Assembly (NCBI GenBank): GCA_963681505.1
Contig: OY811984.1
Span: 1,188,772 to 1,252,771 of the forward strand
Direction of reading: 5' to 3'
Source: Eunapius fragilis
Taxonomy: Eukaryota > Porifera > Demospongiae > Spongillida > Spongillidae
DNA length: 64,000 nucleotides
A program made the position numbers and the translations under genes. A model generated the notes under the pieces. It made no database searches. It had not been told where the DNA came from and saw only the letters and a list, made by a program, of their open reading frames with translations. This document shows, one piece after another, positions 17,213 through 63,895 of this stretch; position 1 is the first letter of the stretch, and every line of letters begins with the position of its first letter.

Positions 17213-20200
17213 TTAAACAGTCATTTCAACTTCAGAGTGATCTGGTACGTCTTTTCTTTGCTTGATGATTGCAGGTTCCACATACCTGAAAAGATGGGAA
17301 ATGTTTTGAATATTCGTAGATGTGTGATTAATAACTCAAAATGTTACTAGGTGCTATCATTATGTAGTACTTGGTAATTTACAGTTTGTCATATTGGGAT
17401 CGTAGCAGCTAGCAAACTTACTTTTTCACTGCTGTGACATCTTTGAGAGCCACACCTCCAGGAGTTAGGGGTCCAGAGTACACAAACTTTCGAACTTCAT
17501 TCTTTGTTGAAAGTTCTTCGTTCTGCGGTCCGGTGTATCACACACAGTCAAAAATAATTTCAATGCTCACACACCTGTGACTCCTCGTATGATTCCATGA
17601 TCAGAGAAATCATGAGGTTCAACATGGCATAGATGAAGAGCATAAGAAATATAGTGAAGAAGAACTGGCTGAATACGTAGGCTTCAGGGTCGTCATCGTA
17701 ACGTATTGCTTGGTACGTAATATACAGGTCATCTCCGTGCATCATTGTGTAAAGGGCATGGAATGACTCCCCAAAGTTCATAAACTGCAGTACAAATAGG
17801 TGGTGGTTTCAAAAGTTGGTCTTGAAAAGAGAGGAGGGGTTATTGCTGACCTTATAATGGTATGGACTCAGGACCAACCATCCACACATCATGAAGGCCA
17901 AGAACAGTAGCAGGGCACATAAAATGTACTTGCCCAGCCGAGGAGCAGCTATTTTTAGAGCTCTGAAGACTGCCTTCAGAAGGACTTTTGAGTAAAGGTA
18001 AAAATTTTAAACTGTAAGGTTCACTTACATTAAATTGTTGGAAGTAGCTGACAAAACGAAGCATGACTGCTGCCTGTAGAAGGATGCCTGTTCCAAGGAG
18101 AATCCTCACCATGCTGGTCTGGATACTAGAAGATGGGGTCTGTTGGATAGGGAGGGATGTGGTAACATGTCCACCATAAGGTAGCACACTTACCAGCAGA
18201 CAGGAGCTATAATCTAGTATTATTTTCATAATAGTGCCAGTGATGGTAATGAGGTCTCCAAAGATATTAAAAATATGGCCTCGTGAGAATATAGGCAAGC
18301 AATCGCTCCAGCTCAAATCAATGCCTAGCTGGGTTTTATAGAATGTTCTCATAGCCTATGTTGTATAGTACATAGTAAATGTAATCGCAATGAGAGTTTG
18401 ATCTTCCTCATACCTTTGCTAGGACAAATGATGTCCAGGCGTTCGCTGCAACCATCAGCAGGGATGTCACACACAGGACCACTATTATCCCACTAACTAC
18501 GTCTTTCACGATTTGCACACCTATTGGAATTGGCAGAAACAAATAGAAATTTAGCTAGCTTTTTAAATCTTTCCCTGTTTTTTTAAAATTCACATACTGT
18601 TCTCCTCTACTATGGTTCGGGTTGAGTTTTGACTGCACTGTGTGCAGTCAAACTCCAACTGCAAAGAACATTCCACAATACCACCTCCTTTTGCTTTCAT
18701 TTTTATCTGTTCGAGGGTGCGTGCGGAGGAATTTTACTTCCATCACTGGTTTTAAATATATGTCTAGGTTCTCACGTACCATAGCTATAACTGTGTAGCA
18801 GTCTACCACACTGGACTGTGTAATCTGTATCGTGTTGAAATAGTAAGTGATATCCATTGCGACAAACCTGCAGTTTCAATTGTGAAATAAATAAAACAGC
18901 AATGCTCTCTTTATCAATCACAGTGCGTGGAATCATTTAGAAATTATTGTGTGATTGAACAGAAAAACGCGGAAATCACACGCTTTATGTGATTTTCTGT
19001 TCAATCACGCAACTGATGATTTCTAATGATTCGACGCTTGTGAATGCTTGTACACGTTTACATGGAGGGACCATCATACTGGTATGATATACTTAAGAGA
19101 CCTACAATGGAATATAGGGCCCTAAGGGACCTCTATGCTCACATTGCATAATAGCTAGGCCTTCAGTAAATATGCGTACATGTACCTGCTATAGAGCGGG
19201 TCATCTGAATATCTGTTCATCTGTCCAATGATATCATTAGTAGGGTCCAGCTGAAATGAAACTGAAACACAGCAACACATGGGAATACTTGCAAAGCAAA
19301 GTCCCAAGCATGACGGCCTAAAAATAAGCCACTCACTGGTCTCGTATGTGTCATTCAGTACGTACGGCACAGCCGTGAAGTCCAGCATGGCATACTGCGT
19401 GAGGGTGACCTGAACCGGATGCAAGTCTCCAGTATCTGTCCTTGCACAGTCAAATCCATAGGCAACTGAGTTTGCAAAGTTGGAATACTGTCCAAAGCAA
19501 TTGTTAACCAGAGAGGGGGGAGAAGGCGGATTGAGAAAGCTTCAAAGTGCATGCATGTACTACGAGTAATTAATAACCGACCATACCTGGACACCAGAGT
19601 TATTTAGTATATCTTCAATTTCCTCAATGCTGTAGACGGGGTATACACTTCCTATGTCTGCGTCACGACTGCACTTGTCGAGGAGGAGACAGGCAAAGAG
19701 ATGTTCAGCGCTTGTCAGCTGCATCGACTGCCGATTCACGCTCGAGTTCATGAAAAAAATGATCTTAAAATAAAATAAAAAGGAGTTATGAGTAGGCCTA
19801 CAGTCAAGGACGCATGCACAATCCATCCATCTTCTCCTGAGAGCGTTCATGTTTGCACGCTCCCATGATCAATGGTACAGACATTGCTTTGTTTAGTGAT
19901 CATCCCGGTGATACATTGTCATTGATACCCTACCCCTCGCCCCCCCCCCCCCCCCCCCCCCCCCCCGTTCCGAAAGAATGTACCTGCGCCACGACACAAA
20001 TCGTTACAGCCACTTGCAGCATCAGCATCACAGGGGGGCTGCGGTCCGTCTTCCACCTCTTCAGAGGATTGCTGATGTGATAATAGATGTTAGCTTTCAG
20101 TTCCATCTCACTGGTGCTCATTTGGATGAAGCTCGCGGCCGAGCGAAGCCTATTCAACTTTTTCACAGTGGTTTTCGTGCCGTCGACGGCATCTAAGGCA

Positions 20201-20364
20201 TTTGTGGCCTGGTCCGTCACGGGAACGTCCGGCTGTAAGTTCGGCGCTCCAGCTAAATTCGTAGCTCCACTTTCTGTCCCGAGCGCATTATCAACATATA
20301 TCTGCAACTTTCGCTCCCTAGCGGGCAGGCGTGTGTACCTCGTTCTCAGCGTTATTCCGTCCAT
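17213..20364 (-). CDS. MCOLN: TRPML-1: mucolipin-family cation channel (HGDD filter)
   Basis: Thirteen exons: 20364-19984, 19763-19587, 19487-19337, 19261-19186, 18867-18780, 18706-18598, 18520-18414, 18355-18194, 18139-18029, 17973-17851, 17784-17575, 17522-17422 and 17285-17213. They give 622 aa. Layout: cytosolic N-terminus, [12 protein letters not shown] before S1 (about 110-130), a large luminal loop with a FDCTQC motif, then S2-S5, pore and S6. The filter reads MMHGDDLY (His511), where TRPMLs have NGDD. S3 region LITITGTIMKI and S4 region [18 protein letters not shown] match mucolipins. The loop lacks the exon-4 cysteine pair seen in TRPML-2, -4, -6, -7 and -8. Exons 1 and 2 of the other genes are fused here. 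Intron 9 is only 55 nt. The tail ends with a KYVEP-type exon. Family members are endolysosomal Ca2+/Na+/Fe2+ channels gated by phosphoinositides; localisation here is inferred. Confidence 0.87.
18925..19037. repeat. Imperfect inverted repeat, about 42-bp arms, in TRPML-1 intron 4
   Basis: Left arm about 18925-18966, right arm about 18993-19037. The arms share GTGATTGAACAGAAAA and GAATCATT with scattered mismatches and a small gap, around an about 26-bp spacer. Short size and paired ends suggest a degenerate MITE or fold-back element; no target-site duplication was identified. Confidence 0.6.
19940..19966. repeat. Poly-C tract in TRPML-1 intron 1
   Basis: C homopolymer of about 25 bases, just downstream (minus sense) of the first exon donor. 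Confidence 0.9.
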
Positions 20365-63800: not shown

Positions 63801-63895
63801 CCATTTTGTGATGCCACATCGTCGAAGTTTCTGCCCTTAAGATTCTCCCTGGATTCATCGTATTTGCCGTCATTGCGAACTGCTACTTCAGCCAT
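57875..63895 (-). CDS. MCOLN: TRPML-8: mucolipin-family cation channel (NGDD filter)
   Basis: Fourteen exons: 63895-63739, 63028-62805, 62388-62182, 62037-61875, 61794-61716, 61161-61074, 60542-60443, 60242-60124, 59781-59617, 59557-59456, 58822-58700, 58636-58427, 58132-58032 and 57968-57875. They give 643 aa. MAEVA start (an ATG further upstream in frame is possible). FYHISNPITRWKADHSPPIK precedes S1. The loop has SCGKDEC (exon 5) and MCTHC (exon 7). S4 region RIVLGIGVVLQAAVVLRY. Filter MLNGDDLWSTY (Asn525). S6 FFTIFLILFIYAVLNLFIS. The tail is the longest of the array (SYIDPEIVKRR..., ending HYTE). First gene of the array in transcription order. Intron 1 holds a small MITE and a poly-G run. 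Confidence 0.88.
59160..59335. repeat. 30-bp minisatellite in TRPML-8 intron 10
   Basis: Five to six units of ACATGGACCAAGGCAAAGCT plus CAGCCCCCAC, nearly identical to one another, the first (CTCCATAC) and last diverged. Confidence 0.93.
59785..59965. repeat. GAGAGGGAGGGA low-complexity tract in TRPML-8 intron 8
   Basis: Purine-rich imperfect repeat, pyrimidine-rich on the gene strand and ending at the exon 9 acceptor. Confidence 0.8.
60290..60420. repeat. (GT)n microsatellite in TRPML-8 intron 7
   Basis: GT repeat with ATG and CAG interruptions between exons 7 and 8. Confidence 0.9.
63102..63218. mobile_element. 95-bp MITE-like element with 27-bp inverted repeats and 11-bp target duplication
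   Basis: Inverted ends AGCCTCGTCCCCAG... at 63,113-63,139 and 63,181-63,207 pair over 27 bp with two mismatches. The 11-mer AGTTACTACAT lies directly outside both ends (63,102-63,112 and 63,208-63,218). An 8-11 bp target duplication is typical of Mutator-like elements; that assignment is tentative. Located in TRPML-8 intron 1. Confidence 0.8.
63350..63440. repeat. (TG)n microsatellite in TRPML-8 intron 1
   Basis: About 90 bp of GT repeat between exons 1 and 2. Confidence 0.95.

Follow-up and report, generated by a model that had tools for sequence, protein, structure and literature searches.

An array of eight homologous channel genes

We analysed a window of 64,000 nucleotides (nt) from the freshwater sponge Eunapius fragilis (chromosome 14, 1,188,772-1,252,771), in which genes for channels of the TRPML (mucolipin) type are repeated in tandem. 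TRPMLs are lysosomal Ca2+ channels encoded by one to a few genes per animal (TRPML1-3; a single insect Trpml). Eight sets of homologous exons, here called c1 to c8, lie in identical order on the minus strand of the window and run head to tail from the c8 ATG at 63895 to the c1 stop at 17213. An initial annotation of this DNA had proposed such an array of intact genes encoding 585-654 amino acids (aa). The number, strand, arrangement and open frames from ATG to stop were recovered in all eight models, with lengths of 580-643 aa rather than those claimed. The genes are listed below, together with the selectivity filter of each product.

17213..20364, minus strand: c1, 13 exons, 622 aa, filter HGDD
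22427..26536, minus strand: c2, 13 exons, 601 aa, filter NGDD
27407..31724, minus strand: c3, 14 exons, 585 aa, filter HGDD, one GC-AG intron
32002..35922, minus strand: c4, 13 exons, 629 aa, filter NGDD
37237..44732, minus strand: c5, 13 exons, 618 aa, filter NGDD, last intron of about 2 kb
45713..51014, minus strand: c6, 14 exons, 626 aa, filter NGDD, N-terminal dileucine-type motif ERDALL
51649..56277, minus strand: c7, 14 exons, 580 aa, filter NGDD, first and last exons uncertain
57875..63895, minus strand: c8, 14 exons, 643 aa, filter NGDD

Exon sizes and phases are common to the copies (88, 100-112, 107-119, 162-165, 102-111, 123, 207-210 and 101 nt), in agreement with the initial annotation except in c5. 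There, a single 252-nt exon (40977-40726, minus strand) replaces the pair of 162-165 and 102-111 nt, and the intron between the exons for transmembrane segments 3 and 4 (S3 and S4) is missing. Smaller differences in size concern c4 (94 nt, against 88 elsewhere), c1, c3 and c4 (109-112 nt, against 100 in the others) and c1 and c3 (107 nt, against 119 in the others). The S3-S4 luminal loop of c5 is also shorter. Splice ends are GT-AG in 99 of the 100 introns, the other being the GC-AG intron of c3.

The models were obtained with a purpose-written spliced aligner, copy against copy, followed by splice-site enumeration. Since the aligner penalised stops and the enumeration required GT/AG, open frames and GT-AG ends are partly due to construction, and the evidence for the models is therefore that conserved exons join in frame in eight of eight copies. 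Least certain are the first exon of each of c5-c8 and the last exon of c5 and of c7, for which the evidence is weak. The c6 model could be compared with P0001, an uninterrupted freshwater-sponge orthologue of 621 aa, which is 80% identical to it over 613 columns that cross every one of the 13 junctions in the c6 gene (5.3 kb). The longest contig in the source of P0001 has 3468 bases, and P0001 probably represents a spliced transcript.

Membership of the TRPML family

Sequence, fold and common introns place the array proteins in the TRPML family in the wide sense. The c6 product matches human TRPML3 over residues 79-590 (E 1.5e-48), and full-length homology to TRPML1-3 exceeds that to other channels. 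The structure predicted for the c6 orthologue P0001 has a TRPML-type six-transmembrane (6-TM) fold with a luminal I-II linker domain. Further, seven of the nine introns in each of two conventional TRPML models of E. fragilis (chromosome 7 and chromosome 18a) fall at the same column and phase as in most or all array genes, which have two additional introns in the transmembrane part (alignment columns 550 and 665). TRPP identity was ruled out by the homology ranking, the fold and a pore-region tree in which TRPP stands apart on a 100/100 branch. In line with this, the proposal that these are TRPML-type channels of an early animal is supported by sequence, fold, introns and tree position, and a check on placement outside TRPML and TRPP put the array clade beside conventional TRPML.

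A clade apart from conventional TRPMLs

A whole-genome search with c6 led to further loci beyond the window. Loci of the conventional TRPML type lie on chromosome 7 (L008) and chromosome 18 (L004, L005, L006 and L007). L004, L005 and L006 are near copies of a conventional TRPML gene (86-93% DNA identity), with L005 matching L004 at 93% over 4.4 kb and L006 yielding little beyond the pore exon; they constitute a second, younger local expansion.

A tree of 42 rows was built from 23 of the at least 120 matches listed, hand-picked for taxon spread, and it included five of the seven freshwater-sponge proteins (P0003 and P0004 were left out). In this tree the array clade (16 rows) sits on one branch with support of 100/100, outside the conventional TRPML clade. 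Three conventional E. fragilis genes pair with their Ephydatia muelleri orthologues inside a sponge TRPML group, which adjoins cnidarian, insect, mollusc, nemertean and vertebrate TRPML. Compared with four TRPMLs (E. muelleri P0008, Halichondria P0010, Amphimedon P0017 and toad P0074), the products of c1-c8 show identities of 21.9-27.6%. In a pore-region tree with PKD2 and PKD2L1 as root, from which Oscarella (a long branch), lgn_P0018 and Em_G031169 were left out, the array clade (92/85) is placed next to the whole of conventional TRPML (97/94), subject to a long-branch warning. The array genes thus form a separate, divergent clade, which the trees show as sister to conventional TRPML of animals. 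They had been described as an expansion of ordinary TRPML genes, which fails because the clade is separate at 100/100 and the conventional TRPMLs are located elsewhere, on chromosomes 7 and 18.

The same trees leave a real chance, though somewhat less than an even one, that the clade is young, consisting of fast-evolving demosponge or freshwater-sponge duplicates of conventional TRPML whose sister position results from long-branch attraction. Its stem is long (1.29 changes per column), the rooted tree warns of long branches meeting, and common introns would fit descent from a recent parent no less than from an old one. A profile search of the protein collection returned only the same seven freshwater-sponge proteins as the preceding database search, and the lack of matches outside freshwater sponges would likewise suit a young clade, both searches being limited to relatives with short words in common. 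A tree constrained to group the array with 12 demosponge-like conventional TRPMLs was not rejected in the approximately unbiased (AU) test (p-AU 0.097). Grouping with six freshwater-sponge conventional TRPMLs was rejected, however (p-AU 0.0016), which rules out descent from these. Also at odds with a young clade is the finding that, without an outgroup, 13 conventional TRPMLs labelled as sponge (Oscarella excluded; four of the labels were assigned in this analysis) form a clade that excludes the array (96/90). Because the freshwater-sponge grouping is rejected and the demosponge-like one is not, the split between array clade and conventional TRPML may be old or younger.

Block duplication and relatives outside the window

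Within the array, c1 and c3 are of one type and c2 and c4 of another. On chromosome 16, a gene of c2 type (X) is followed by one of c1 type (Y), in the same order along the direction of transcription as in c4-c3 and c2-c1; a two-gene block is therefore present three times. X (L002, about 2538-6050) has an S2 exon readable only in two frames, an apparent frame break. Y is open where aligned, has an uncertain 5' end and carries an HGDD filter. Between them (L002, about 7056-8500) lies the truncated 5' half of a c1-type, Y-like gene. A further c5-like locus (L001) on chromosome 14, at about 1,138-1,142 kb and 47 kb outside the window, has one exon whose pore part and S6 part lie in different frames. 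Conservation of frame, which had been described as full among the eight genes, consequently fails for the clade as a whole, with the chromosome 14 copy and apparently X frame-broken and one chromosome 16 copy truncated. The 9 kb upstream of c8 yielded no additional copy.

In E. muelleri, Em0018g852a is the c6 orthologue, and EMCRGX_G031166, EMCRGX_G031169 and EMCRGX_G031178, which are close to c6 and c7/c8, are listed with equal contig size (6,560,412); part of the array therefore probably predates the split of Eunapius and Ephydatia. No E. muelleri orthologue of c1-c5 type was present among the matches of the word-limited database search.

Gene conversion and selection

Single exons in two pairs of array genes are far more alike than the exons around them. 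The tracts are as follows.

18029..18139, minus strand: c1 S4 exon, gene-conversion tract with the c3 S4 exon as partner
28821..28931, minus strand: c3 S4 exon, partner of the c1 S4 tract
17575..17784, minus strand: c1 pore/S6 exon, tract matching c3 28593-28384
51961..52170, minus strand: c7 pore/S6 exon, tract matching c8 58636-58427

The S4 exons of c1 and c3 are identical at 110 of 111 nt (36 of 37 third positions) and their pore/S6 exons at 190 of 210 nt (61 of 70 third positions). By comparison, the S5 exon between them is identical at 90 of 122 positions (21 of 41 third positions), and the S3 exon preceding S4 at 114 of 160. Between c7 and c8, the pore/S6 exon is identical at 185 of 209 positions and the other 12 exons compared at 59-80%. 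High third-position identity confined to single exons points to conversion and not to selection alone: exon-sized gene conversion has homogenised the c1/c3 S4 and pore exons and the c7/c8 pore exon. The closest partner of c1 is Y of chromosome 16 in a full-length tree (94/84) and, weakly, c3 in the pore tree (97/0), a difference expected from gene conversion.

Pairwise ratios of nonsynonymous to synonymous substitution rates (dN/dS; NG86) were computable in seven of ten pairs, three being saturated, and are rough values as synonymous divergence (dS) exceeds 1 in all ten. They amount to 0.29 for c1-c3, 0.25 for c7-c8 and 0.10-0.25 for the five remaining pairs, with X or Y as a member of three; the four computable window pairs give 0.18-0.29. 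As the S2 exon of X seems to be frame-broken, its dN/dS is no evidence of present constraint. Purifying selection on average, in line with the earlier proposal, is supported by the values of 0.10-0.29 across the seven pairs, some of them with chromosome 16 relatives. The possibility that the window array consists of pseudogenes was ruled out by these values together with the eight open frames.

Between c1 and c3, identity falls from 79% in S5-S6 to 39% in the lumen and 25% in the N-terminus, and N-terminal and luminal identity is 25-60% in the six pairs that were split by region. The contrast described earlier between a conserved S4-S6 and a divergent N-terminus and lumen was thus seen, but part of the S4-S6 likeness is due to gene conversion, so that this conservation by itself is no proof of a shared pore with divergent ligands. 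That the copies are redundant, retained for dosage or in partial decay, with no division of labour, would be suggested by the homogenised pore exons and by the frame-broken and truncated relatives elsewhere in the genome. We consider this quite improbable, since the window pairs have kept open frames and low dN/dS at dS > 1, their N-terminal and luminal parts have diverged to the extent given above, and filters differ (HGDD in c1 and c3, NGDD in the other six). The divergent copies may plausibly differ in ligands, partners or organelles.

Filter and the phosphoinositide site

In addition to the filter difference, the residue preceding the filter (TRPML1 position 468) is Leu or Met in all eight copies. 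In TRPML1, I468V abolishes Zn2+ permeation and keeps Ca2+ permeation (PMC12753230), and the ion selectivity of the array channels may therefore differ.

At the phosphatidylinositol 3,5-bisphosphate (PI(3,5)P2) site, residues were compared for R403 and Y355, whose equivalents were placed by the c6-TRPML3 alignment and by the TRPML1 numbering. The R403 equivalent is retained in all eight copies; the conventional sponge genes shown in the pore tree have Phe at the Y355 position. In TRPML1, Y355 hydrogen-bonds R403 at this site (PMC8851561). The number of basic residues before S1 was discarded as a mark of a lost PI(3,5)P2 site, the array range (3-5) overlapping the conventional one (4-7).

Other features of the window

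37319..39041, strand not assigned: minisatellite of 1.7 kb with a 33-bp unit, within the last c5 intron
2787-4094 and 4627-6000, minus strand: adjacent long open frames of 435 and 457 aa, with a CCHC zinc knuckle in the first; possibly a mobile element
9812-10438, minus strand: open frame encoding a Vts1-like RNA-binding domain, which scores above the Pfam cut-off

Discussion

We consider it likely that the window holds eight open genes of a divergent freshwater-sponge clade of TRPML-family cation channels, shaped by tandem and block duplication and by exon conversion, with divided organelle roles. Gene models, family, fold (that of the orthologue), clade, block order and conversion are the computed parts of this reading. 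The array would have grown by old tandem duplications, including that of a two-gene block, and some neighbours would then have exchanged single S4 and pore exons. The proteins would form tetrameric 6-TM cation channels with a luminal domain, sit in the membranes of acidic organelles (endosomes, lysosomes, phagosomes), open towards the cytosol and release Ca2+, perhaps also other divalent ions, into it; work may be divided among organelles, cell types or stimuli.

Several observations weigh against this reading. The Pfam domain MCLN_ECD, for which five proteins were scanned, scores 20.3-23.6 bits in c5, c6 and c8, against a cut-off of 27.1, and gives no match in c1 and c2. Damaged relatives, two frame-broken and one truncated, indicate that members of the clade can be lost; since our confidence rests on the window copies, the apparent frame break in X leaves it unchanged. 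The Y355 equivalent is His in seven of the eight copies and Tyr in c3, and the dileucine-type motif [DE]xxxL[LI] is confined to c6 in the cytosolic N-terminus and to c2 in the C-tail. Gating and location may thus differ from those of TRPML. Because conventional sponge genes have Phe at the Y355 position, His there is not a clean sign of lost gating.

The His at this position and the N-terminal motif in c6 only could also mean that the channels left the endolysosome and act as sensory TRP channels at the plasma membrane or cilium, an idea to which a reduced inflation response of freshwater sponges under putative ciliary TRP blockers adds some weight (PMC3890488). We judge it unlikely, as the c6 orthologue is predicted to retain the fold of the TRPML luminal domain, and as TRPML2 and TRPML3, also without the exact dileucine motif of TRPML1, are reported on endomembranes (PMC12753230). 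Organelle channels of a divergent TRPML clade remain our preferred reading.

Several species of the freshwater-sponge group host intracellular algae. A more far-reaching version, which we offer tentatively and hold to be doubtful, is that of a second TRPML lineage, split off at or before the base of the animals and lost elsewhere. Here, the freshwater-sponge array would swap S4 and pore/S6 exons while luminal domains and termini diverge, yielding combinable organelle channels, including a subgroup with His at the filter entry, for the physiology of phagosomes or algal symbiosomes. One published physiological lead comes from algae-infected E. muelleri, in which the genes expressed at a lower level at 24 h include mucolipins at multiple loci (PMC7882143).

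A genome in which conventional TRPMLs are joined by a separate clade with at least eight open genes suggests that repertoires of organelle channels can grow like those of sensory receptors, and the array hints at an unusually rich organelle channel set in a freshwater animal. It also offers a natural variant series at the filter and near the PI(3,5)P2 site, useful for structure-function work, and further sponge genomes would allow the age of the split to be tested. According to a review of TRPML evolution, sponges have at least one Mcoln gene (PMC7312350). Published work already covers diversification of both TRPA and TRPML in E. muelleri, along with many tandem clusters with identical intron-exon structure in its genome (Kenny 2020). 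In the searches made of open-licence PMC literature, no paper was seen to describe the array, the separate clade or gene conversion.

Compared with known systems, the array resembles TRPML/mucolipin channels in its full-length match, its fold with the luminal I-II linker domain, the NGDD filter in six of eight copies and the seven intron positions that it has in common with each of two conventional TRPML genes of E. fragilis. It differs in its identity of 22-28%, its separate clade, the extra introns at columns 550 and 665, a filter region of (M/S)(L/M)(N/H)GDDL(Y/W) in place of the LINGDDMF-like sequences of the conventional proteins shown, and a conserved C-terminal exon, which carries a GPLTxGGVALRD-like motif; it is set apart further by His at the Y355 position and absence of the N-terminal dileucine motif, each in seven of eight copies. 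TRPP/polycystin-2 shares with it the 6-TM architecture and a large extracytosolic S1-S2 domain. The E. muelleri genes Em0018g849a, Em0018g852a and the three EMCRGX models named above are c6 orthologues and c7/c8 relatives. Kenny 2020 outlines the TRPA/TRPML diversification of that species; a gene-level array, separate clade, block duplication and conversion were not seen in the excerpts of that paper.

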